A DNA stretch of 64,000 bases from Paenibacillus rhizosphaerae (GTDB lineage Bacteria; Bacillota; Bacilli; Paenibacillales; Paenibacillaceae), in contig NZ_JACHXJ010000002.1 in assembly GCF_014192015.1 (NCBI RefSeq), positions 620,001-684,000 of the forward strand, read 5' to 3'. Of the stretch, positions 44,882-58,313 are shown piece by piece. The position numbers and the translations under genes are program-made. Each line of letters begins with the position of its first letter. Position 1 is the stretch's first letter. Below the pieces are notes generated by a model. It was not told the DNA's origin. It worked only from the letters and a program-made list of their open reading frames with translations, and did no database searches.

Positions 44882-45484
44882 ATGGAAGCTTTTACGAAAT
44901 TAACAGGTCTCGTCGCTCCGGTAGACCGGGTGAACGTGGATACGGATGCCATTATTCCTAAACAATTTTTGAAGCGGATCGAGCGCACCGGTTTCGGACA
45001 ATTTCTGTTCTATGAATGGAGATTCGATGAGCAGGGCAACGACATCCCGCAATTTTCGCTGAACCAGCCGCGCTATAAAGGCGCTTCGGTCCTGATTTCC
45101 AGAGCCAACTTCGGCTGCGGATCTTCCCGTGAGCATGCGCCATGGGCGATCATGGACTACGGGTTCAAATGCATCATTGCTCCGTCGTTCGCAGACATTT
45201 TCTACAACAACTGCTTTAAGAACGGCATTCTGCCGATCAAGCTGTCTGAAGAGCAGGTGGAAGATCTGTTCCAGCGTACGGCAGCGAATGAAGGCTACGA
45301 GCTGAACGTTGATTTGGAAAACAAAACGATCACGGATGCCCAAGGTCTGCATATCGATTTCGAACTGGATGAGCACCGCCGTCAGTTCCTGCTGCAAGGC
45401 CTGGACGATATCGGCCTGACCCTTCAACATGAAGACGCCATCGCCGCCTATGAGCAAAAGCGCGGGGCTCGCTTGTTCGCGTAA
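44882..45484 (+). CDS. leuD: 3-isopropylmalate dehydratase small subunit
   Basis: Swivel-domain subunit (200 residues) that completes the LeuCD enzyme. The signature segments [17 protein letters not shown] and [15 protein letters not shown] (substrate-binding) are visible. AAGGAGGAG precedes ATG 44882, 14 bases after the leuC stop. A strong terminator at 45521 ends the operon. Confidence 0.97.
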
Positions 45485-45520
45485 CTTAGCCAGCCGGATG
45501 GGCCCTGCCCTTCATTATAA

Positions 45521-45558
45521 GCTCCCATGCTCCGATAAGGAGTATGGGGGCTTTTTTT
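45521..45558 (+). terminator. Terminator after leuD
   Basis: A 13-bp stem with G-U pairs (GCTCCCATGCTCC with GGAGTATGGGGGC) and seven T's. The remaining gap to 45783 is AT-rich with no clear feature. Confidence 0.9.
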
Positions 45559-45783
45559 GCTGGAACCAGTGGTATACCCAGAGGAGTAGAAGTAGTCATG
45601 GGAGGTCGATATTTGGATAAATTGGGGAATGAAACAGGTAAAAACTTGTAAAATCAAGCAGGAATATAAGCTTAGCACACAGAAATTGTTATACATCAAA
45701 CACCGTTAATGTTTTTTTTATACATAAATTCTGCCGGCTTTGTCACGAGCAGCAGCAAAAAATCAGTTTGTCAGAGGTGGAAC

Positions 45784-47286
45784 ATGAAGAAATTCGGCTT
45801 TTTACTGTTTTTATTGATGTTCGCCTTTATTGTCGGCGCCCAGGCGCCGTCGGTATCGGCGGCAAGCGGCACGGAGATCGTGCTGGACGGCAAGCAACTG
45901 GACATGCCAGTGGATGCAGGCGTTGTCAACGTGAACGGGAGCATCATGGTTCCCTTCCGCGTGGTCGGTGAAAATCTTGGATTTGCCGTAGATTGGGAGC
46001 AGAAGTCGCAGAAGGTCACGATTGAGAAAGGCAGCACCAAGATGCTGCTTGTCGTGAAGCAGAAATCGGCAACCGTTAACGGCAAAAAGGTGAGCCTGGA
46101 TCAGCCGCCGCTCCTGCAGAAGGGCAGCGTCGTTGTGCCGATCCGGTTCGTGAGCGAGCAAATGGGGCTTGCGGTCAGTTGGGATGGCGTTAATAAAACC
46201 GTGTATCTGGCGACGGATGCAACGAATCCTTCGGGATCCGATCCGGGAACAGGTGCAGGCAGCGGAGGCACGATACCGGTTCCCGATACGGGGAGCGGCA
46301 ATTCCAACAACACCGCTCCGGCAGGCAGCTCTGAAGGATCCGGCATGACCGGTCAGGAGGGGATTGCCGAGCTGACAGGCATCAGCTTTAGCGACAACCG
46401 GTTGATGATCGCTACCTCCGGCAACGGCGATGTGGTGCCGAAAGTGTTTACGATGAAGGATCCGGACCGCATCGTCGTGGATCTGCCGCAGACCCAATTC
46501 TCGTCAGCGCTGGGCGATACGCTGAACCTGAACGCCGACGCCCAAGGCAAACTGGACGTCAGCGGGTATCCCGACGTTTCCGGAATCCGGTATTCGTTGT
46601 TCAGCAGCAGCCCGTCTACCGTTCGGATCGTGATTGATTTGAACTATGCCAAAAATTATGCCGCTTACCCGGACCCGTCCGGAAGCGGAATGTTTATCGT
46701 CGATTTGAATTTAGCTTCGGAGACGCCGTCGGTTCCGGTCGGAGGCAGCGGGAAGAAGGTCGTCGTGATTGATGCCGGCCATGGGGCCAAGGATCCCGGG
46801 ACGATCGGTTATTCGAAAACGAAGGAGAAGGACTTCAACTTGGCGGTTGCCCTGAAAGTCGGACAGCTTCTCGGGAATGAGTCCAACATCGATTTTGTTC
46901 TGACGAGAAGCGATGACACTTTCCTCGAGCTGAAGGACCGTGTTAAAATAGCCAACGATCTGAATGCCGACGTGTTTGTATCCATCCATGCGAACAGCGC
47001 GGGCTCGTCCGCGGCGAGCGGCAGCGAAACGTATTATCAGCGTGATGCGAGCAAATCACTGGCAAACGTGCTGCACAAGTATTTGGTTCAGGCTACGGGC
47101 CTGGCGGACCGGGGAGTGAAATACGGAAACTTCCACGTTATTCGGGAGACCAAAATGCCGGCTGTTCTCTTGGAGGCTGGATATCTAAGCAATCCGAAGG
47201 ATGAGGCAACCTTGTTCTCCGAAGACGTCCAGCAGGCCGTCGCGCAGGGGATCGTGAACGGCATCAAGGAATATTTGGGATTGTAG
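45784..47286 (+). CDS. N-acetylmuramoyl-L-alanine amidase, cassette copy 1
   Basis: Exported cell-wall hydrolase (500 residues) cutting the amide between MurNAc and the stem peptide. Signal peptide at residues 1-25. A copper-amine-oxidase-N-like domain spans about 30-140 (MVPFRVVGENLGFAVDWEQ). A Gly/Ser/Pro linker and an AMIN domain (about 199-310) follow, then the catalytic Amidase_3 domain (about 324-500). Zinc ligands and catalytic Glu are in VIDAGHGAKDPG, SIHANSAGS and VLLEAGYLSN. ATG 45784 follows AGAGGTGG. It pairs with the GerMN lipoprotein downstream, and both recur in a second copy. Confidence 0.92.
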   Translation: MKKFGFLLFLLMFAFIVGAQAPSVSAASGTEIVLDGKQLDMPVDAGVVNVNGSIMVPFRVVGENLGFAVDWEQKSQKVTIEKGSTKMLLVVKQKSATVNGKKVSLDQPPLLQKGSVVVPIRFVSEQMGLAVSWDGVNKTVYLATDATNPSGSDPGTGAGSGGTIPVPDTGSGNSNNTAPAGSSEGSGMTGQEGIAELTGISFSDNRLMIATSGNGDVVPKVFTMKDPDRIVVDLPQTQFSSALGDTLNLNADAQGKLDVSGYPDVSGIRYSLFSSSPSTVRIVIDLNYAKNYAAYPDPSGSGMFIVDLNLASETPSVPVGGSGKKVVVIDAGHGAKDPGTIGYSKTKEKDFNLAVALKVGQLLGNESNIDFVLTRSDDTFLELKDRVKIANDLNADVFVSIHANSAGSSAASGSETYYQRDASKSLANVLHKYLVQATGLADRGVKYGNFHVIRETKMPAVLLEAGYLSNPKDEATLFSEDVQQAVAQGIVNGIKEYLGL

Positions 47287-47314
47287 GATCCGGAACTTGG
47301 CTGAAAGGAGTGTT

Positions 47315-47995
47315 ATGGTGAATAAAAAAATATGGTGCGCAGTTCTTCTGTCCGCCGTGATGATTGTGGGAGCAGGCTGCGGTCAGAAAGCGAAGACGGC
47401 TCCGCCTCCGCCGGCGAGCGCTTCCGAACCGAGCTCGTTTCAAGCGGACGACAGCACGTCGCCGCCGGACGCGGAAAGCACTCCGCCGGATGACAGTACG
47501 ACAGGCAGCGCTTCGGGCAACGACAGCGGTGGAGATACTGGGGAAACAAAGGGAGAAGCGGGCGGTCAGGCAGTTCAGGATCAACCCAGCGTTCAGAAAT
47601 TGACTATTGATGTATTTTACACCGACCCGCAGGAAATGGAGCTGAAAAAGGCTCAGAAGGAGATCAGCTTCGAATCGGATATCGAGAAGTACGTGCACGC
47701 GTTTAAGGCGCTTCAAGACAGCGGCAGCAGCGACCTCGTTCCGCTGTGGGGTAAAATCGAACTGACCAAAATGTCAGTGGACCCGCAGGATGCAGGTCTC
47801 CTGCATATGGACATTCATATTCCGGACGAAGCCCGGCTGGGGTCGGGCGGGGAACAATTTGCCCTCGACTCGCTCAAGCAAACGATGTTTCAATTCGACG
47901 AAATCAAAGCGATCGACCTCCTCGTCGACGGCCAAGCCGTGGAGAGCCTGATGGGCCATATGGACCTCGACCATCCGATCAAGAGAGGCGAATAA
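47315..47995 (+). CDS. GerMN-domain lipoprotein, cassette copy 1
   Basis: A 226-residue lipoprotein: signal peptide with lipobox VGAGC, cysteine at about residue 20, then a disordered Pro/Ser/Thr-rich acidic linker (about 25-100). The C-terminal GerMN domain begins LTIDVFYTDPQEMELKKAQ and ends in the ARLGSGGEQFALDSLKQTMFQF region. GerM is a sporulation/germination protein of B. subtilis. Together with an amidase it suggests a role in cell-wall remodelling, perhaps in sporulation. AAAGGAG precedes ATG 47315. Confidence 0.85.
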   Translation: MVNKKIWCAVLLSAVMIVGAGCGQKAKTAPPPPASASEPSSFQADDSTSPPDAESTPPDDSTTGSASGNDSGGDTGETKGEAGGQAVQDQPSVQKLTIDVFYTDPQEMELKKAQKEISFESDIEKYVHAFKALQDSGSSDLVPLWGKIELTKMSVDPQDAGLLHMDIHIPDEARLGSGGEQFALDSLKQTMFQFDEIKAIDLLVDGQAVESLMGHMDLDHPIKRGE

Positions 47996-48024
47996 GGCCT
48001 CACTTCAATCCATGAACGAATAAG

Positions 48025-48060
48025 CATGCCGATTCCTAACGGGAGTCGGCATGTTTTTTT
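48025..48060 (+). terminator. Terminator after cassette copy 1
   Basis: A stem CATGCCGATTCC with GGGAGTCGGCATG is followed by seven T's. It separates the two amidase/GerMN cassettes transcriptionally. The following 215 bases up to 48276 show no supported gene. Confidence 0.88.
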
Positions 48061-48276
48061 GAGAAACCGTGCTTTTCAGCAGGGGTGTTTGAATCATGGA
48101 TACATAAAATCCCGGTTTTGTCCATCCAAAGTCATAGTAAAACTTTTGCATATAGAGGAATATATTCGCAACTTTTCAAGGGGGCTCGCGTCTAATAAAT
48201 GTCTGGTGATGTCGAAGATGCCTAAGCCGAAACGTCAAAAAGTAGTTGAAAAATTTGAGAATGGTAGGGGTGAATA

Positions 48277-49719
48277 ATGAAGAAGTTTGGTTTTTTGTTA
48301 GCGTTTATTTTTGTCTTCATTTTGGCGTTTCCTCATAATGGACAGGCTGCGGCAGGGAGCACAAAGATTTTTTTGAATGACAATGAGCTGAAGCTTACAG
48401 GTAATGCAGTGGTTGAAAATGTGAAGGGCAATACGATGATCCCATTTCGTGTGGTCGGAGAGAGTCTGGGATTTGATGTCACATGGGAGCAGAAGACCGG
48501 CACGGTAACCATACAAAAGGACTCGACAGTCATAAAGCTTGTTGTTAATCAAAAGAATGCTACGGTTAACGGCAGTAAGGTTGCACTTCATATCGCGCCG
48601 ATTCTGCGCACCGACACGGTCATCGTCCCGCTTCGCTTTGTGAGTGAGCAAATGGGACTGACCGTCAGCTGGGATAATGTGAAGAAAGCGGTATATTTAA
48701 TTACCCCGGATTCGAACTCCGGAAACAGCGGAAATGCCGGCACCGGTGCAGGCAATGGCGGCTCGACCGTACCTGGCAGCGGAAGCGGCGACAACGACAG
48801 CAGCGTCGGGCTGGTGAATGGACTCAGCTTTAGCGACAACCGGCTGCTGATCGCAACCAGCGGATCGGTCAAGGCCAGCAGTTTTAAAATGACAGGTCCC
48901 GACCGGGTCGTCATCGATCTGACGAACGCGAAGTTTTCGGATCAATTCAGCGGTTCTTCTCCGCTGGACAGCAATTATAACGGCTCAATCAGCGTCAGCG
49001 GCTATCCGGATGTTTCCAAGATCCGTTACTCGCTGTATAACGATAATCCTTCCACAGTACGCGTGGTCATTGATCTGAATTATGCGAAAAATTATAAGCT
49101 GACCAATGAAAACGGGATGTATATCATCGACTTGAACACATCAGACAGCGGCACTCCTTCCACACCAGTTGGCGGAGGCGGCAAAAAGATCGTCGTCATT
49201 GATGCGGGCCATGGCGATCAGGATCCAGGCGCATCAGGCGTTTCCGGCAAAAAGGAAAAAGCGTTTAACCTGGCGGTTGCCCTTAAAGTAGGGGCTCTGC
49301 TCAAAAATGATCCAAACATCGATGTCGTTCTTACCCGCAGCGACGATACGTTCCTGGAGCTGAGCGAACGGGTGAAGATCGCTAACGATTTGAAGGCGGA
49401 TGTGTTTATTTCCATCCATGCGAACAGTGCAGGTTCCTCCGTGGCAACGGGAAGTGAAACTTATTATCAGCGGGATGCCAGCAAGGCGCTGGCCAACGTG
49501 ATGCATAAATACCTGGTACAAGCCACTGGACTGAAGGACCGCGGCGTCCGCTACGGCAATTTCCACGTCATCCGCGAAACGAAGATGCCGGCCGTGCTGT
49601 TGGAAGTCGGTTATCTGAGCAACAAAAACGATGAGGCCGCGCTCTTCTCGGAGAGCTTCCAGCAGCGGGTTGCCAAAGGCATCGTCAGCGGGATTAAAGA
49701 GTATTTGGGTGTGAACTAA
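48277..49719 (+). CDS. N-acetylmuramoyl-L-alanine amidase, cassette copy 2
   Basis: A 480-residue paralog of the amidase at 45784, with the same domain order: signal peptide, copper-amine-oxidase-N-like domain (about 28-138), shorter linker, AMIN (about 182-290), Amidase_3 (about 303-480). The catalytic residues in VIDAGHGDQDPG, SIHANSAGS and VLLEVGYLSN are intact. The linker and N-terminus differ most; the catalytic domains are nearly the same. GTAGGGGTG precedes ATG 48277. Its 5' part is visibly more AT-rich than copy 1. Confidence 0.92.
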   Translation: MKKFGFLLAFIFVFILAFPHNGQAAAGSTKIFLNDNELKLTGNAVVENVKGNTMIPFRVVGESLGFDVTWEQKTGTVTIQKDSTVIKLVVNQKNATVNGSKVALHIAPILRTDTVIVPLRFVSEQMGLTVSWDNVKKAVYLITPDSNSGNSGNAGTGAGNGGSTVPGSGSGDNDSSVGLVNGLSFSDNRLLIATSGSVKASSFKMTGPDRVVIDLTNAKFSDQFSGSSPLDSNYNGSISVSGYPDVSKIRYSLYNDNPSTVRVVIDLNYAKNYKLTNENGMYIIDLNTSDSGTPSTPVGGGGKKIVVIDAGHGDQDPGASGVSGKKEKAFNLAVALKVGALLKNDPNIDVVLTRSDDTFLELSERVKIANDLKADVFISIHANSAGSSVATGSETYYQRDASKALANVMHKYLVQATGLKDRGVRYGNFHVIRETKMPAVLLEVGYLSNKNDEAALFSESFQQRVAKGIVSGIKEYLGVN

Positions 49720-49753
49720 TGATGAGTCGCAGGAAAAAGGAGGCGGGAAGTCA

Positions 49754-50455
49754 ATGAATAAAAAAGTTTGGTGTGCAGGAGTTCTGGCTCTGGCGTTGGT
49801 TGCTTTGGCAGGCTGCGGCCAGAAGCCGACCGCCGCACCAGATCAGCAGCAGGAGACGGCCTCCGATCAGCAGGTGACTGGCAGCGGCGGAGATGCGGCA
49901 GCCGGAGAAACAGGAACTGAAGGCACCGATAGTGCCGTGAGTTCCGGCAGCGGGCAGGACCAAAGTTCAGACCAAGGACAAGCCCCATCCGGTTCGCAAG
50001 GGCAGGGTCAAGAGGCGGCTGGCCAGGGCCAATCCACGTCCTCGCAAACGACCGATTCGACCCAAAAAAGCCTGAATATCGACGTCTATTATACAGACCC
50101 TGAGGAACTGGATTTGCACAAAGCCCAGAAGGAAATCAGCTTCAGCAGCGACGATGAAAAGTATAAGAAGGCATTCGAAGCGCTGCAGGCCAGCGACAAA
50201 TCCGACCTCGTTCCTCTGTGGGGCAAGGTGGAACTCAAATCGCTGAGCATGAAGGACGGCCAGCTTACAATGGACATTCATCTGCCGGATGAGGCCCGTC
50301 TTGGTGCAGGGGGCGAGCAGTTCGCCCTGGATGCGCTCGGCAACACCCTGTTCCAGTTTGACGAAGTAAAGTCGATCGAGCTGCTGGTTGACGGCGCCAA
50401 GGTGGAAAGCCTGATGGGGCATGTCGATTTGGAGCATCCAATGACAAGACACTGA
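49754..50455 (+). CDS. GerMN-domain lipoprotein, cassette copy 2
   Basis: A 233-residue paralog of the lipoprotein at 47315. The lipobox is LAGC, cysteine at about residue 21. The linker is Gln/Gly/Ser-rich (repeats such as GQGQEAAGQGQ) instead of Pro-rich. The GerMN domain (LNIDVYYTDPEELDLHKAQ to the ARLGAGGEQFALDALG region) is strongly conserved with copy 1. AAGGAGGCGGG precedes ATG 49754, 34 bases after the amidase stop. Confidence 0.86.
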   Translation: MNKKVWCAGVLALALVALAGCGQKPTAAPDQQQETASDQQVTGSGGDAAAGETGTEGTDSAVSSGSGQDQSSDQGQAPSGSQGQGQEAAGQGQSTSSQTTDSTQKSLNIDVYYTDPEELDLHKAQKEISFSSDDEKYKKAFEALQASDKSDLVPLWGKVELKSLSMKDGQLTMDIHLPDEARLGAGGEQFALDALGNTLFQFDEVKSIELLVDGAKVESLMGHVDLEHPMTRH

Positions 50456-50533
50456 TTTTTTTGGGGAAATTCAGGAAAAAAAGCAGGAGCTCGGCTCCTG
50501 GATGTCGAATTATATACAGCTAGAGAATGGCTG

Positions 50534-50623
50534 ATAGTAACGAACTAAAGTCGGAGCGCCGCGCATCCTTTGCGGGAGCTATTATTCCCGGGGAACGGGC
50601 GCATCCGCTTTAGTTCTTTCTAT
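50534..50623 (+). repeat. Palindromic intergenic element, copy B
   Basis: A 90-base unit has ends GAACTAAAG (50542-50550) and CTTTAGTTC (50608-50616), flanked by ATAG and CTAT. A nested stem pairs CGGAGCGCC with GGGCGCATCCG and the centre holds CCCGGGG. It shares outer ends, length and core with the element at 6186-6274, but the internal arms differ. It lies in the leader of the SLH gene, ending about 23 bases before its start. Confidence 0.55.
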
Positions 50624-50646
50624 TTATTTCAGAGAGGGGCACTATC

Positions 50647-53382
50647 ATGGTTCATAAACGCAGCAATCATTCCTTACCTTCTAAAAAAGTCGTCTCCGCC
50701 GTACTGGTCGGTATGATGGCATTGAGCTCGGGAACAGCGGTATTCGCGGATACCCAGACGACGACTGGAGCGAGCGTAACAGCAGCCTCCGTTGGCCAAT
50801 TCAGTGATGTCAAGAGCGGATTTTGGGCTGAGAAGCATATATACAAGCTTGCTGCCCAAGGCATTATCCTCGGCGATAAAGGCCTGTTCCGTCCAAACGA
50901 TTATGTGACCCAGCAGGAAGCCGTAACGATGGCGATCCGCTTTGCCGGGCTTCAGAACAAGCTGAGCACGGACACGGCCGTTGCGCTGCCTGAGAATGTG
51001 GTCGTAAATAATTACTTCAAGCCATACGTTGCACTGGCTTTCCAGCAAAGCCTGCTGAACAAGACGTCCGAAAGCGCGGCCACCGGTCAAAAGGGAACCT
51101 GGGGCGAGCGGAAGGCGAGCCGGGAATGGATCACCGAAGTGCTGGTACGCGCCCTGGGCAAGGAAAGCGAAGCTTCCGCCGCGGCCTCAAAGGCCACGAC
51201 GTTTGCCGATAACAGCAAGATTTCTGCTTCAAAACGCGGCTTTGTGAACGTTGCGCTGGAGCTGGGCTTGACGAACGGTGTGGATGGGAACCGCTTTGAT
51301 CCGCAAGGATCGGTTACGCGCGCCCAGCTGGCGACCTTTTTCAGCCGGGCCGAAGCCCACAACAACATTAAGTACGACAACTCCGCCGAAGGCATCATCA
51401 CCGGGCTGAGCGATAACAAGCTAGATTTGTATGTAGACGGCAGTGTGCGGAGCTACACGATTGATGCGTCAACCGGTTATTTTACAAGCGATTCGGAAAC
51501 AAAGATTGCCTTTGCGGATCTGAAGCCGTACACGAAAGTGATGGTCATCGGCAGCGGGACGAAGGCGGGATACGTGGAAGTGACGGATCCAACCGTTCAG
51601 CTGGAAAGCACGGAAGGAACGTTCCAGAAGCTGTCTCCGGGGAACATTCTCTGGATCGAAACGAACAGCACGTTCCAGCAGTTTACATATGATGCGGGCA
51701 CGACGTTCCTGGACCAGAACGGAGCGAAGATCGATCCTTCCGCCATCGCGGTCGGCAGCAAGGTGTCGGTATCCCGTGAGACGTTCAGCTCTGCCAAGAA
51801 AACAGTCATCGTTCAAGTGAAGTCCGGGATCGTGAACAAGACGGGCACCGGAACGCTGCAGAGCATCGATACGGCCACCAAATCGCTCGTCATCAAAAAT
51901 GACGCGGGCAATCTTGAGAGCTACACTTGGGATGCCAGCTCGTTCTTCAGTTACCAGAATGAGATTCTGTCTCCGTCCGAGCTGAAAGCGGGTTCCACCA
52001 TTAATTACACGATCAAGAACAACATCATTCAGTCGATTGAATTAAAACAGGGAGTGGAGCGGACGATCCGCGGATCCTTGTATGAGATTGGAGCAAACGG
52101 CTCGACTATTACCTACAAGCGGGACGGCGGAGCTCTCGAAGTGAAGCTTCTCGCCAGCAAGCCGGAAATCGTCATCAGCGGCATCAGCGCACCGCTTCTG
52201 AGCGATCTGATCGCGGATTCCACCGCCGGCGACCAGGTGCAAATTACGCTGAACCCTGACGAGCAGGTAACCAAAATCGAGGTGCTGAACCGTCAAATGG
52301 AGCAAAAACGCGGAGCCTCGGTCGTATCCTATGAACCGAAGACGAAGCTGCTCACGCTGATGGACGCCAACAAAAAGCCGTTCGTCGTGACGCTCGACGA
52401 CAAAACCAAGCTGGTGTACAACACGGCAAATCCGACGCTGTCCGGCATCGAATCGCTGCTGACGACCGGCCGTAAGGTGAACGTCAGCTACTTGACGAAC
52501 CGGGCGCTGTCGCTGGAGGTCATCTACCAGTACGACGGCAAGGTAACCGCGATCGATACGGCTGCCAAGAAAATTACCGTGGTCACGCCGGGCGGGGAAT
52601 CACTCGTGCTGCCGTACAGTAATCCGGCCGTTCAAGCATACGGCAAAAGTAACGCGTCCCTGTCCGACGTGAAGGTCGGAAGCGAGGTTGCCCTCGTGCT
52701 GAATGCGGCGCAGGATGCGGTTTCGTCCATTTTGCTGAAATCGACGGTTCAGTTTGAAGTCGTGGACATGAACTATACAAGCAGCCGGATTACGGTGAAA
52801 AAGGATGGCGTAACGAGCCAATTCTATCTGGATAAAGCCGCCCTGACAGGAGATAACGGTCAGGCTGTGGAGCTGGCGGATATTCGCGCCGGACAAATCC
52901 TCAACGTGACCATTAACGGCACGAACGCGGCGGCCGCACAAATCGTCAAGCTGACGACGGGCCAAATCACCGCGGTGGATTCTTCTGCGGCATCGCCAAG
53001 CATTACGGTGAAGGATTATGCCGGAACGACGGAAACGTTCAAGCTCGGAACCGGGTCGAAAATCGTCAATGACGCCGGCAGCGCTCTGAGCCTGGGGAAT
53101 CTGGCTGCGGGCAACCGCATCGAAGTCCGCAAGGACGAAAGCGGCAATGCCGTGGTCAAGGTGCTGAACGTAACGACCCAGACCTACTGGAAATATGACA
53201 GTTATGCGAAGGAAATATATGTGAAACGGCAAAATGTCAATGATGCCAACCAATACACGCTTTCGCCGGGCGCATATATTCACCAAGGTGACACGATATT
53301 GACCGTGCAATCCCTGAAAGAAAATGATACTATTGTATTGTATTTAAACAATGGAACGATTGTAGAAATACAGAAACAATAG
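50647..53382 (+). CDS. S-layer homology (SLH) domain surface protein
   Basis: A 911-residue exported protein. Signal peptide at about residues 1-36. An SLH region follows: repeat 1 at about 53-105 (FSDVKSGFWAEKHIYKLAA), a degenerate repeat 2 around 115-172, and repeat 3 at about 183-236 (RFDPQGSVTRAQLATFFSRA). SLH domains bind pyruvylated wall polymer. The remaining ~670 residues are beta-rich, with recurring units such as GTGTLQSIDTATKSLVIKN and GKVTAIDTAAKKITVV, probably repeated small beta domains. GAGAGGGGC precedes ATG 50647. It is likely a wall-anchored structural protein. Confidence 0.88.
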   Translation: MVHKRSNHSLPSKKVVSAVLVGMMALSSGTAVFADTQTTTGASVTAASVGQFSDVKSGFWAEKHIYKLAAQGIILGDKGLFRPNDYVTQQEAVTMAIRFAGLQNKLSTDTAVALPENVVVNNYFKPYVALAFQQSLLNKTSESAATGQKGTWGERKASREWITEVLVRALGKESEASAAASKATTFADNSKISASKRGFVNVALELGLTNGVDGNRFDPQGSVTRAQLATFFSRAEAHNNIKYDNSAEGIITGLSDNKLDLYVDGSVRSYTIDASTGYFTSDSETKIAFADLKPYTKVMVIGSGTKAGYVEVTDPTVQLESTEGTFQKLSPGNILWIETNSTFQQFTYDAGTTFLDQNGAKIDPSAIAVGSKVSVSRETFSSAKKTVIVQVKSGIVNKTGTGTLQSIDTATKSLVIKNDAGNLESYTWDASSFFSYQNEILSPSELKAGSTINYTIKNNIIQSIELKQGVERTIRGSLYEIGANGSTITYKRDGGALEVKLLASKPEIVISGISAPLLSDLIADSTAGDQVQITLNPDEQVTKIEVLNRQMEQKRGASVVSYEPKTKLLTLMDANKKPFVVTLDDKTKLVYNTANPTLSGIESLLTTGRKVNVSYLTNRALSLEVIYQYDGKVTAIDTAAKKITVVTPGGESLVLPYSNPAVQAYGKSNASLSDVKVGSEVALVLNAAQDAVSSILLKSTVQFEVVDMNYTSSRITVKKDGVTSQFYLDKAALTGDNGQAVELADIRAGQILNVTINGTNAAAAQIVKLTTGQITAVDSSAASPSITVKDYAGTTETFKLGTGSKIVNDAGSALSLGNLAAGNRIEVRKDESGNAVVKVLNVTTQTYWKYDSYAKEIYVKRQNVNDANQYTLSPGAYIHQGDTILTVQSLKENDTIVLYLNNGTIVEIQKQ

Positions 53383-54516: not shown

Positions 54517-54641
54517 GTCCGGCAAAATGATTTCCAACCCATCCGTGGAATGTTAAAATAAAACTATTTGAATGGGTTTTCAGGCAAAAAGCGTCACGAG
54601 CCGCCTCATTCGGTCAATTGACACAAGGGAGAGTAGTCAGC

Positions 54642-57600
54642 ATGTCGTTCACTGTCCAAACCACAGCTAGCCAAGGATCTCTTGCGCTGCAGCCTCTGAA
54701 GGAGCAGCTTGCCGCTTGGGGCGATGCGAGATCTGCGAGTCTAATCGAGGATTTAATACATAAAGCAGACGCCGGGGAAATGACCATTGCCTTTTGCGGC
54801 CATTTCTCGGCGGGGAAATCCAGCATGATCAATTCCTTATGCGGCCGAAAGGTGCTTCCTTCCGGTCCAGTGCCGACCAGCGCCAACGTCGTCTCTATCC
54901 GCAATGGCGAGCCGCGCGCCCTGATCTATCCAGCCGCAGGCGCGGGTGACGAAGCCTTCAGGGAGACCGCAGACCCGCTGCAGGTCTCATTGGAGGAACT
55001 GTACGAATACTGTACCAACGGCGGAGACTATTCATCGGTGGAAGTGTGGGATCAAGTCCCTCTGCTTGGGGAGCACGGCGTGTTCATGGATACGCCCGGG
55101 GTGGATTCGACGGACGACGGCCATCAAAAAGCAACCCACTCCGCGCTTCATTTGGCGGATGTCGTTCTGTATGTGATGGACTATAACCATGTCCAGTCCG
55201 AAAACAATTTGGTGTTTGCCAAGAGCCTGTCGGATTGGGGCAAACCGCTGTACTTGATCGTCAACCAAATCGATAAGCACAGGGAGCGTGAGCTATCCTT
55301 TGATACCTACCGCGAGGAAGTGGAGGCTGCTTTCAAGCGGTGGCAGGTTCATTACGAAAATTTGCTGTTTCTCTCGCTGAAAAACCCTGAGCATCCGTAT
55401 AACCAGCGGGCTCAGCTGGATGGCCTGGTGCAGGAGCTGATCGCCCAGCGGGCGCCGCTCTTGTCTTACAGCATCGACTGCTCCGCGCGTCATATCGCCG
55501 AGCAGCATACGGCGCAATTCGCCGATTCGCTGCAGGAAGAGATGGAGCAGCTGCTGCAGGAGATGGGTGGCGCGGAGAAGGCGGCGGAGCTGGAACGGGA
55601 GATGGGCGCGCTCAGGGAGGAGATCGGCCGGCTTGAAAACATCAAGCAGCTTGAGCGCGAAACGGTCCGCCATGAGGTGGAAGGGCTGCTGGAGAATGCC
55701 AACCTGACGCCGGCCGATCTGCGCGACCGGGTGCAGTTGTTTCTCGAAAGCCGCAAGCCGGGCTTCAAGAAGGGCTTTCTGTTCTCCGGGGCAAAGACGG
55801 AGCAGGAGAAACAGGAACGATTAGAAGGCTTACTGTCGTCCCTGCGGGAGCAGTGCGCCTCCCAGATCGGGTGGCATCTTCAGGAGCTGCTGCGACGCTG
55901 GGGACAATCCCACCGGATTTGGAACGAGGCACGCGATAAGCAGCTTGCCGATCTGATGCCGGTCATCGGGCCGGAGCTGTTGGAGAGCACGGTGGAGCCG
56001 GGCGCGGTGCTGTCCGGCGAATATTTGCTGAACTACTGCCGCAAGCTGTCGGCAGAGATCAAGGCGCTGTACCGCCGCGCTGCGCTGGACGCGGCGGAAG
56101 AGATGCTGGCGGATGTCGAGGCATCCGCCGCGCCCGCCAAGCAGCGCGCACAGCAGGAGCTGGCCGCGCTGCAGGAGCAGTCCGCCGCAATGGCCCGCTA
56201 CACGGAGCTGGCAGCGGCCATCGCGGCGCGCAAGGAAGCGGCGGCGCGCCTGCTGCCGCCGCACCAGGCGCTCACCCCCGGCACCCTGCCGCGGGTGAGC
56301 GCCCCAGCCCGGCCGGCTGCGCCGCCGGCCGGGGAAGAAGCGGGCGCGCCGATGGCGGCGCCCGCTGTGAAGCCCGCCCCGCATGCAGGGGCGGGGCCGC
56401 AGGGCGGCGCGGCCAAGGGCCGCCGCCAGCGGCTTGACGCGGCCGCGGCGCAGCTGCGCGAAGCGGCTGCGCTGCTGGGGCGCCATCCCGCGCTCGCTTC
56501 CGCCGCGCGGGGGCTGGAGGGCCGAGCCGAGGCGCTGGCCGGCGGCTCGTTCACGATGGCACTGTTCGGCGCGTTCAGTGCCGGCAAGTCTTCGTTCGCC
56601 AACGCTCTGCTCGGCGACAGCGTGCTGCCCGTCTCGCCGCATCCGACGACAGCGGCGATCAACCGCATTCTGGCCCCCGAGGGCGAGTATGCGCACGGGA
56701 CGGCCAGGGTGCAGATGAAGTCGGCCGAGGCCTTCCAGGACGATTTGGCGTATTCCTTCTCGATCCTCCAGCTCGGTAAGCCTGAAGGCGACGGTTGGCT
56801 CGAAGCGGTACGTTCCATGAAGCCGGAAGGCGTTCATCCGGCCGGCCTGCCGCATTACGGATTTCTCAAGGCGGCCGCCGCGGGTTGGGAACTGGCAAAG
56901 CCGCTGCTGGGCAGCGATCAGACCGTTGACATGGCCGAGTACCGCTCTTTTGTGGCGGATGAGACCAAATCTTGCTATGTCGACCGGATTGATCTGTATT
57001 ACAGCTCTCCGCTGACGGAGCAGGGGATCGTGCTTGTGGATACGCCGGGGGCCGATTCACTGCACGCCCGCCATACCGGCGTGACGTTCCAATACATGAA
57101 GCAGGCGGACGCCATCGTTTTTGTGACGTATTATAACCATGCGTTTTCCAAAGGCGATAGGCAGTTCCTGGCCCAGCTCGGCCGGGTGAAGGACAGCTTT
57201 GCCCTCGATAAAATGTTTTTCATCGTCAACGCGGCCGATCTGGCCTCTTCCCCGGATGAACTGGAGCAGGTCGTCAAGCATGTGGACGGCAACCTGAAAG
57301 CCCGGGGCATCCGGCTGCCGCATATTTACCCCCTCTCCAGCATGACCGCGCTCGAGGCGAAGCTGGGCGGAGATGAAGCGATGCTGGCACATTCGGGGCT
57401 CGGCGCATTCGAGGATGCGCTCGGGGCCTTCGCCGGGGAAGAACTGCCCAAGCTGTCCCTTCAAGCCGCCGCATCCGAGGTGTCGGCTGCGCGGAAAAGG
57501 GCGGAGGAATGGGCGCGTCTGTCCCGTCAGGATGCAGGCAGCAGGCAGCAGCGCAAGCAGGAGCTGGTCCGGACAGCCGAGCAGGCCAAGGGGCTTGTCG

Positions 57601-58313
57601 GGCAGTTTGCCTCAATGCAGCAGGGGAACCTGATTGCACAGGAAACGAAAGAGCTGCTGTTCCACGTGAGACAGCGGATCGGTTTCGGAATGGGTGACTT
57701 TTTTAACGAAACGTTCCATCCTTCCGTTCTGCGTGAGGATGCGGGACAGCTGAAGCGGGTGTTTACCGGGTGCGGACGCGAGCTGGAACGGACGCTCGTT
57801 CGTGAGCTGGAACAGGAGCTGCTTGCCACGACGCTTCGTTTGGAGAACAAAGGCAAACAAATCGTGTATGCGGCTGCCGTACAGACGACAGAGGATATAT
57901 CCGCTCTAGATGCCGGGTTGGTGCTGAATCCGCCGGAGGAAAAAGAGTGGGAAACGCCGGAGCTTAAGGAAGTTCAGCTGGAAGGCATCGTCGACTGGAA
58001 CGCGGGCTGGGGATATTTCAAATCGCCGAAGGCTTTTTTTGAAGGCGGAGGACGCGAAAAAATGCGCGCGGCTGTTGAAGAACAGATCAAAGAAGCACTG
58101 AGCCGCGAAGTTTCCGCTCAGGAGGGGCTGCTGTCGGATTTTTACGCACAGCGGATGGCGGATGCTCAGCATAGGCAGGCCGGCAGGCTGCAGGAGCAGC
58201 TGGAGGAAACGGTCGATGCGCTGACCGCCTCGCTGGAACAGGGCGAACGGCCGGAGACGTGGGATACCCTCGCATCCGAACTCCTTCATATTGAACAGCG
58301 AATGACATCTTAG
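54642..58313 (+). CDS. dynA: Bacterial dynamin-like protein with two GTPase domains (DynA-like)
   Basis: A 1223-residue fusion of two dynamin-like units, like B. subtilis DynA (YpbR). Unit 1 has P-loop GHFSAGKSSMINSL (about 53-66) and the switch DTPGVDSTDDG. Unit 2 has P-loop GAFSAGKSSFANAL (about 645-658) and DTPGADSLHARH. Helical stalk regions follow each. An Ala/Pro/Gly-rich, very GC-rich linker sits at about residues 530-590. Such proteins bind and tether membranes, and DynA is known for membrane protection under stress and phage attack. ATG 54642 follows GGGAGAGTAG. Confidence 0.93.
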   Translation: MSFTVQTTASQGSLALQPLKEQLAAWGDARSASLIEDLIHKADAGEMTIAFCGHFSAGKSSMINSLCGRKVLPSGPVPTSANVVSIRNGEPRALIYPAAGAGDEAFRETADPLQVSLEELYEYCTNGGDYSSVEVWDQVPLLGEHGVFMDTPGVDSTDDGHQKATHSALHLADVVLYVMDYNHVQSENNLVFAKSLSDWGKPLYLIVNQIDKHRERELSFDTYREEVEAAFKRWQVHYENLLFLSLKNPEHPYNQRAQLDGLVQELIAQRAPLLSYSIDCSARHIAEQHTAQFADSLQEEMEQLLQEMGGAEKAAELEREMGALREEIGRLENIKQLERETVRHEVEGLLENANLTPADLRDRVQLFLESRKPGFKKGFLFSGAKTEQEKQERLEGLLSSLREQCASQIGWHLQELLRRWGQSHRIWNEARDKQLADLMPVIGPELLESTVEPGAVLSGEYLLNYCRKLSAEIKALYRRAALDAAEEMLADVEASAAPAKQRAQQELAALQEQSAAMARYTELAAAIAARKEAAARLLPPHQALTPGTLPRVSAPARPAAPPAGEEAGAPMAAPAVKPAPHAGAGPQGGAAKGRRQRLDAAAAQLREAAALLGRHPALASAARGLEGRAEALAGGSFTMALFGAFSAGKSSFANALLGDSVLPVSPHPTTAAINRILAPEGEYAHGTARVQMKSAEAFQDDLAYSFSILQLGKPEGDGWLEAVRSMKPEGVHPAGLPHYGFLKAAAAGWELAKPLLGSDQTVDMAEYRSFVADETKSCYVDRIDLYYSSPLTEQGIVLVDTPGADSLHARHTGVTFQYMKQADAIVFVTYYNHAFSKGDRQFLAQLGRVKDSFALDKMFFIVNAADLASSPDELEQVVKHVDGNLKARGIRLPHIYPLSSMTALEAKLGGDEAMLAHSGLGAFEDALGAFAGEELPKLSLQAAASEVSAARKRAEEWARLSRQDAGSRQQRKQELVRTAEQAKGLVGQFASMQQGNLIAQETKELLFHVRQRIGFGMGDFFNETFHPSVLREDAGQLKRVFTGCGRELERTLVRELEQELLATTLRLENKGKQIVYAAAVQTTEDISALDAGLVLNPPEEKEWETPELKEVQLEGIVDWNAGWGYFKSPKAFFEGGGREKMRAAVEEQIKEALSREVSAQEGLLSDFYAQRMADAQHRQAGRLQEQLEETVDALTASLEQGERPETWDTLASELLHIEQRMTS

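Follow-up and report, generated by a model that had tools for sequence, protein, structure and literature searches.

The 64,000-nt window analysed here (positions 620,001 to 684,000 of contig NZ_JACHXJ010000002.1, Paenibacillus rhizosphaerae, assembly GCF_014192015.1) possesses at 45784-50455 an amidase-lipoprotein-amidase-lipoprotein array, in which each predicted secreted cell-wall amidase (A1, A2) is followed by a lipoprotein with one GerMN domain (G1, G2). The four complete open reading frames (ORFs) run in one direction and make up the two adjacent cassettes that a first-pass annotation of this DNA had proposed. The features of the array, in window coordinates, are as follows.

45515-45562, + strand: terminator 3' of leuD, the upstream border of cassette 1 (fold -27.7 kcal/mol, z-score -7.1; also found by a simple scan)
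45658-45685, + strand: sigma-H-like box GCAGGAATA-N12-ACAGAAA, 98 nt 5' of A1, with one mismatch to RNAGGAWWW-N11/12-RNNGAAT
45784-47286, + strand: A1, predicted secreted N-acetylmuramoyl-L-alanine amidase, 500 aa (signal peptide, Cu_amine_oxidN1, AMIN, Amidase_3)
47318-47995, + strand: G1, one-GerMN lipoprotein with a Pro-rich linker, 225 aa
48018-48070, + strand: terminator between the cassettes, a hairpin followed by T7 (fold -25.6 kcal/mol, z-score -6.6)
48169-48194, + strand: extracytoplasmic function (ECF)-type promoter, by motif match, CAACTT-N14-CGTCTA (AAC-N16-CGTC), 82 nt 5' of A2
48277-49719, + strand: A2, second amidase with an A1-like domain set and a CwlV-like catalytic domain, 480 aa
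49754-50455, + strand: G2, one-GerMN lipoprotein with a Gln/Gly-rich linker, 233 aa

The frame of A1 opens at 45709 and its start was placed at the MKKFG codon; the frame of G1 opens at 47297 and its GTG start was picked by match to G2. The two cassettes are alike far above chance, with identities of 60% between A1 and A2 (expectation value E 0.0) and 50% between G1 and G2 (E 2e-66). The diverged Pro-rich and Gln/Gly-rich linkers described in the first-pass annotation are indeed present, located in the two lipoproteins. The AT-richer 5' part of the second amidase was likewise recovered, the guanine-plus-cytosine fraction there and upstream being 0.416 (48000-48499) and 0.460 (48250-48749), compared with 0.50-0.57 in the intervals after it and 0.54-0.58 across most of cassette 1. 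The simple terminator scan did not list the hairpin at 48018-48070, but the fold computation shows it, in line with the terminator that had been placed between the cassettes. Owing to this terminator and to the two different promoter-like elements, the cassettes are probably separate transcription units. No Rfam match at E up to 1 was obtained across 45300-50800.

For comparison, matches to an alignment of G1 and G2 (E up to 0.001) were found in 99 of 100 genus genomes (96/96 good ones), in 131 of 148 family genomes (127/144 good ones) covering 18 of 19 genera, and in 44 of the 60 genomes of an order sample. In eight of the matching family genomes the best hit was weak (E 9e-4 to 2e-8). A set of 86 loci was kept, which corresponds to 92 loci (the window stretch and L010-L100) minus the duplicates L021, L022, L026, L028, and L032 and the truncated L019; of L033 the first four hits were retained, of L085 the first two. 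Locus L140 did not enter the analysis. These loci comprise 35 with the order amidase-lipoprotein-amidase-lipoprotein (A-G-A-G), 28 with two amidases and one lipoprotein (A-A-G), and 23 single cassettes (A-G), so that two amidases are present in 63/86. The lipoprotein of the A-A-G loci lies 3' of the second amidase in all 28 cases. In L023, L027, and L031, both cassettes are intact and are separated by 3-8 kb of other DNA.

Both amidases carry AMIN and Amidase_3 domains behind a signal peptide, as first annotated, and in addition a Cu_amine_oxidN1 domain (PF07833) that had been left unnamed (Pfam; Amidase_3 at E 2e-58 and 6.2e-58). Residues H333, E348, H402, and E464, which we take to be the zinc ligands and the catalytic residue, are conserved in 120/120 aligned amidase rows. 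By this domain and its intact active-site residues, A1 and A2 belong to the Amidase_3 cell-wall amidases and are CwlV-like; according to the visible signal peptide they would be secreted, and they are predicted to act on peptidoglycan. Amidase_3 aligns to them in one unbroken stretch, whereas AmiA/B/C models give two stretches, which suggests that the regulatory helix insert of the AmiA/B/C type is absent from their catalytic domain. An identity as the spore-cortex amidase CwlD was rejected, because A1 and A2 score 126 and 128 bits against a CwlD equivalog cut-off of 221.55.

The Germane/GerMN domain of Pfam was detected in both lipoproteins, at 25.2 bits in G1, barely above the 23-bit cut-off, and at 44.6 bits in G2, and a relaxed lipobox pattern is matched by 118 of 121 lipoprotein copies. 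An AlphaFold model of G2 has a predicted local distance difference test score above 90 in the domain (78 for the whole model). Using Foldseek, this model matches 5j7r (E 4e-7, root-mean-square deviation 14) and Bacillus subtilis GerM, 6gzb/6gz8 (E 1e-5 to 1.5e-4, root-mean-square deviation 3.4-12).

The two amidase genes differ in what lies upstream of them. An alignment of the upstream regions from 13 clade members shows that A2 is preceded by an almost invariant block with the core CAACTT-N14-CGTCTA. The exact motif is present upstream of 58/63 A2 copies and 19/23 single copies, whereas it was found at 0/35 A1 copies of A-G-A-G loci and 3/28 of A-A-G loci; the chance level is 0.01 expected among 231 upstream regions (shuffling in 30-nt blocks). 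When two substitutions were allowed, a setting to which this chance level does not apply, the motif was seen at 63/63 A2, 22/23 single, and 4/35 and 15/28 A1 copies, respectively, the hit of the window's own A1 being a chance match inside leuD. Of 111 hits, with spacers of 11-15 nt allowed, 106 have a spacer of 14 nt. Since the motif occurs in A2 and in single copies and is rare in A1, A2 appears to keep what looks like the ancestral promoter. The segment from the A2 promoter to the start codon (48189-48276) is strongly conserved within clades. A structured RNA leader 3' of this promoter was considered and rejected, because the clade alignments, in which some leaders were truncated by a wrongly chosen start, fold weakly and differently (-3.0, -10.8, and -2.6 kcal/mol).

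Three exact sites of the ECF-type motif occur in the 7.55 Mb genome, compared with none for a reversed control, and they precede a secreted Cu_amine_oxidN1 protein, A2-G2, and an SLH protein. Across 61 genus genomes, 168 sites were counted against 19 for the reversed control (summed by eye), with at least one site in 55/61. We inspected 52 sites, consisting of 29 (one a genome), the three of this genome, and 20 picked to avoid amidase, and 50 of them precede genes for exported, membrane, or wall proteins. The genes were sorted by BLAST clustering with one or two members per class checked in Pfam, and they include 17 for amidase, 11 for Cu_amine_oxidN1, seven for SLH, six for SIMPL, and four for LytR-type proteins, two for L,D-transpeptidase, two for another Cu_amine_oxidN1 group, and one with a lipoprotein-like start. 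The remaining two sites precede ribosomal L15 (likely by chance) and no clear gene. By sequence, the conserved -35/-10 pair at fixed spacing 5' of envelope genes is that of an ECF regulon. No sigma gene was found among the genes read after the exact sites, and none was recognised by eye at the six non-exact sites of the genome, three of which are without an ORF.

The form CAACTTT-N13-CGTCTA marks a genus-wide set of envelope genes (L200:1488-4131, L201:2093-5376, L202-L250). Under one promoter motif, Cu_amine_oxidN1 is found on amidases, an L,D-transpeptidase, and other surface proteins (L219:547-1452, L247:1691-3475, L239:585-3317), one of these surface proteins having a sub-threshold PKD match. 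Because it occurs on such varied surface proteins, the domain seems to be a wall-targeting module, not part of an oxidase.

Upstream of A1, a different element was detected. The sigma-H consensus reads RNAGGAWWW-N11/12-RNNGAAT, and a box of this kind about 95 nt 5' of the A1 start is strict in 8/13 members of the window clade and present with at most one mismatch in 12/13 (0.24 expected); the thirteenth, L029, is strict once its start is corrected. In clade III, 1/5 is strict and 4/5 have at most one mismatch, and a strict box is also found in 5/39 further amidases (expected 0.0). As a positive control, the strict consensus gave 12 sites in the genome versus one when reversed, two of them 5' of SpoVG, whose gene is sigma-H-dependent in B. 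subtilis. Two near-identical methyltransferase-like genes, named by eye (L252 and L254, contigs 1 and 2), follow the same strict sigma-H-like sequence.

According to the first-pass annotation, the two cassettes might be used at different times, for example one at vegetative and the other at spore stages, under sigma-E or sigma-G. The patterns of sigma-E, G, F, and K stand at chance level against shuffles 5' of the 35 A1 and 35 A2 copies of A-G-A-G loci, which argues against such a division; at A1 of the 28 A-A-G loci, sigma-E patterns number 2 against 0.6 expected and sigma-F patterns 2 against 0.1. The point in favour of a vegetative/spore split, which we regard as very improbable, is that sigma-H acts as sporulation begins, provided that it is used here. 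A different timing of the cassettes as such is plausible, given the ECF-type element of A2 and the sigma-H-like element of A1, and it would set transition-phase against envelope control, not sigma-E/G.

Alternatively, the second cassette could be plainly redundant, doing what the first does and maintained for dosage, and the promoter difference would have no consequence. The catalytic domains of A1 and A2 in the window differ by only 0.19, and the active sites are intact in all aligned copies, which would fit redundancy; however, in many species A1 and A2 fall into different promoter classes, and two amidases are present at most of the 86 loci. Redundancy seems unlikely.

Within the 86 loci, each of the 121 lipoprotein genes directly follows an amidase gene of this type on the same strand, with a median gap of 30 nt and within 200 nt in 120/121. 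The same pairing is present at 39/39 further loci (order, second sites, and other family genomes), at 18 of which leuCD or nth was not seen in the fetched stretch (only 3 kb for L126). As these 121 and 39 were found via the lipoprotein, they show that no lipoprotein stands without an amidase at the examined loci, not the reverse. The reverse was seen in 20 family genomes chosen for a missing (17) or weak (3, E 2e-8 to 1.5e-4) GerMN match: all keep the amidase, and none of the 30 amidase loci examined in them has a GerMN gene closer than about 1.5 kb. The lipoprotein is thus not essential to the enzyme, and its standing as an obligate partner was dropped. Among distant loci at class level, the pair is present in 12/20, and the other eight have a GerMN gene, mostly lower-scoring, with no such amidase along the stretch retrieved. 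Both samples tell against a fixed partnership.

Divergence of the lipoprotein nevertheless tracks that of the amidase, with partial correlations of 0.47 for the N domain, 0.27 for AMIN, and 0.42 for the catalytic domain, and the per-locus distance between lipoprotein paralogues correlates at 0.70 with the catalytic and 0.14 with the N domain. These figures bear on the possibility that the GerMN lipoprotein has a wall or sporulation role of its own (such as in a SpoIIIA-SpoIIQ-like assembly) and simply shares a transcript with the amidase. GerMN is the domain of GerM, and the amidase occurs alone in the 20 family genomes above, both of which would agree with an independent role. Opposed to it are the tracking of the N and catalytic domains, even with the low per-locus value for N, the position behind such an amidase also at the 18 loci where leuCD or nth was not seen, and the presence of a separate two-GerMN protein beside rph; an independent role appears improbable. 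The genome contains four GerMN hits, namely G1, G2, and two within that other protein, which has 356 aa and two matched stretches and is encoded directly upstream of the ribonuclease PH gene (rph), which is also the arrangement of gerM-rph in B. subtilis. G1 and G2, having one GerMN domain each, were rejected as GerM itself, and because the two-domain protein adjoins rph as a separate gene, their GerMN domain is no sign of a spore role.

The gene order lysR-leuC-leuD-cassette(s)-SLH-nth-dynamin is found in most loci as far as the fetched stretches reach. The immediate neighbours in the window are listed below.

44882-45484, + strand: leuD, conserved upstream neighbour, preceded by leuC
50647-53382, + strand: SLH-domain protein, conserved downstream neighbour (Pfam domains; synteny)

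A dynamin-family protein of 1231 aa with two matched stretches (54618-58313) is part of the conserved neighbourhood. In a tree of leuC, leuD, and nth from 78 loci (eight of the 86 had too few flanking genes), two amidases occur in 59/60 rows within one large clade, and single cassettes in 16/18 rows outside it. The amidase-lipoprotein locus is, judged from these sequences, old and mostly vertically inherited. Inheritance was not strictly vertical throughout, because Paenibacillus pini (L012) belongs to clade III by its neighbour genes (support 98) and to the window clade by its amidases.

That the cassettes arose by duplication, not by separate transfers, had been proposed at first and agrees with their identity, the conserved synteny, and the trees of both pairs. 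In the full-length amidase tree, and likewise in the lipoprotein tree (76 rows), the paralogues cluster by clade. The domains taken separately gave different groupings (domain trees without L068, L077, and L078; careful versions with 46 of the 60 remaining two-amidase loci). In the N-domain tree, A1 and A2 of clade II form one group (100/99) and those of the window clade another (92/89), whereas in the catalytic-domain tree all A2 copies of Paenibacillus rows and the A1 of the window clade form one group (94/91). The ratio of paralogue to A2-orthologue distance in clade II is 0.81 for the N domain versus 1.17 for the catalytic domain, and such shifts were found in four of six groupings (II, III, AAG, and G7; permutation p at most 0.0004). 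The shift was not significant in the window clade (0.88 vs 0.79, p 0.33) or in G18 (0.93 vs 1.00, p 0.36). Homogenisation in the window clade is strongest in the catalytic domain past residue 386, that residue included (ratios 0.58-0.74). The catalytic domains had been called very alike, which holds for the window clade but is not general, since in four of five other groupings A1 and A2 differ more than A2 does between clades, and in the fifth equally.

One old duplication followed by domain-wise homogenisation is therefore favoured by these sequences, though not proven. Alternatively, repeated duplications of an A-G or an A unit may have produced the tandem on several independent occasions, a reading that we consider somewhat doubtful but far from negligible. 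Clustering by clade in the full-length tree is what repeated duplication predicts, and separate events are visible at L077/L078 (neighbour-gene and amidase trees) and at L068 (amidase tree). Approximately unbiased (AU) tests, with groups named after the trees had been seen, back the favoured reading in part: the N-domain data rejected an unmixed A2 clade (p 0.0009), but the catalytic-domain data left unrejected both clade-wise grouping (p 0.31), which fits repeated duplication, and an A2 clade that excludes the window clade's A1 (p 0.23). Against repeated duplication stand the spread of the two-amidase state through nearly all rows of one clade, the catalytic group that joins the Paenibacillus A2 copies with the A1 of the window clade, and the ratio shifts in four groupings. 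Gene conversion as a proven process was dropped, because two of the three AU tests left the alternative unrejected.

Taken together, we propose, with a probability of roughly 60%, that the locus is an autolysin module of the Paenibacillaceae, old and for the most part passed on vertically, whose tandem copies place the same cutting activity under two controls. The module would pair a secreted, wall-binding zinc amidase with a membrane-anchored GerMN lipoprotein as its working partner. The N-terminal domains would hold the amidase on the wall, and the lipoprotein on the membrane may localise, position, or regulate it. The tandem duplication would have taken place long before this species arose; the downstream copy would have kept the ancestral ECF-type promoter common to other envelope genes, and the upstream copy would have lost it and, in the window clade, gained a sigma-H-like promoter, with domain-wise homogenisation keeping the copies alike. 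If both promoters are used, A2-G2 would serve envelope homeostasis alongside S-layer and ligase genes, and A1-G1 would act as cells pass into stationary phase.

Several promoter counts speak against this division of control. With one mismatch allowed, the genome has nine ECF-type sites (three of them exact) versus 20 for the control. The sigma-H-like box is found at 0/12 A1 copies of clade II with one mismatch allowed, the -10 element of the window's own box ends in GAAA, not GAAT, the pattern with one mismatch also occurs at 6/35 A2 copies of A-G-A-G loci (0.7 expected), and 10 of the 12 strict sites in the genome precede no gene linkable to sigma-H.

More tentatively, and with less confidence than the module itself, the GerMN lipoprotein may be a dedicated regulator that acts from the membrane on the wall-bound amidase, and may represent a new class of amidase cofactor in the Paenibacillales and beyond, with the tandem copies split between ECF and sigma-H-like control. 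In that case the ECF envelope regulon would also cover S-layer proteins, LytR-type ligases, and L,D-transpeptidases. Gram-positive autolysins need restraint, and to our knowledge few dedicated partners of Amidase_3 enzymes have been described; a lipoprotein 3' of the amidase at each examined Paenibacillales locus is a strong candidate for such a partner. The promoter split would be a natural case of duplicates dividing by regulation, in which the coding parts may be kept similar by gene conversion, and the ECF-type motif outlines a directly testable envelope regulon across Paenibacillus.

Among known systems, the best match of the A2 catalytic domain in the PDB is 1jwq, CwlV of Paenibacillus polymyxa var. 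colistinus (176 residues, E 2.8e-77), which adjoins the A2 copies of A-A-G loci in the amidase tree (support 84; 36% of columns filled). The genes cwlU-cwlV encode tandem autolysins of that organism. In the excerpted sources, CwlV is said to prefer zinc (PMC6934232) and to be active on its own (PMC8496864), and neither a GerMN partner nor a promoter is mentioned for it there. The activity of CwlV alone is unfavourable to an obligatory cofactor, and it makes a localising or restraining role of the lipoprotein likelier than switching the enzyme on.

GerM of B. subtilis (6gzb, 6gz8) shares the GerMN fold with the G2 model, but it has two GerMN domains where G1 and G2 have one. The ECF-type motif resembles the envelope-stress regulons of Streptomyces sigma-E and of B. 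subtilis sigma-M/W/X in its AAC-N16/17-CGTCTA shape and its envelope targets, the sigma-E targets reading, for example, GGCAAC...CGTCTA in the excerpt of PMC6767563; those regulons have named sigma factors, whereas the Paenibacillus motif is a candidate ECF promoter.

A search of titles and abstract starts, with subscription journals mostly outside it, returned nothing on an amidase-GerMN pair, a promoter division, or this ECF regulon. The CwlV-like catalytic domain is known, and the lipoprotein partner, the division of promoters, and the ECF regulon predicted here are apparently new. In CwlD-GerS of Clostridioides difficile, too, an Amidase_3 enzyme has a lipoprotein as its partner (PMC8496864); this system differs in that GerS is not called a GerMN protein in the excerpted text and in that A1 and A2 score below the CwlD model cut-off. 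Of the known systems, CwlD-GerS comes closest as an example of an Amidase_3 enzyme on which a lipoprotein acts.

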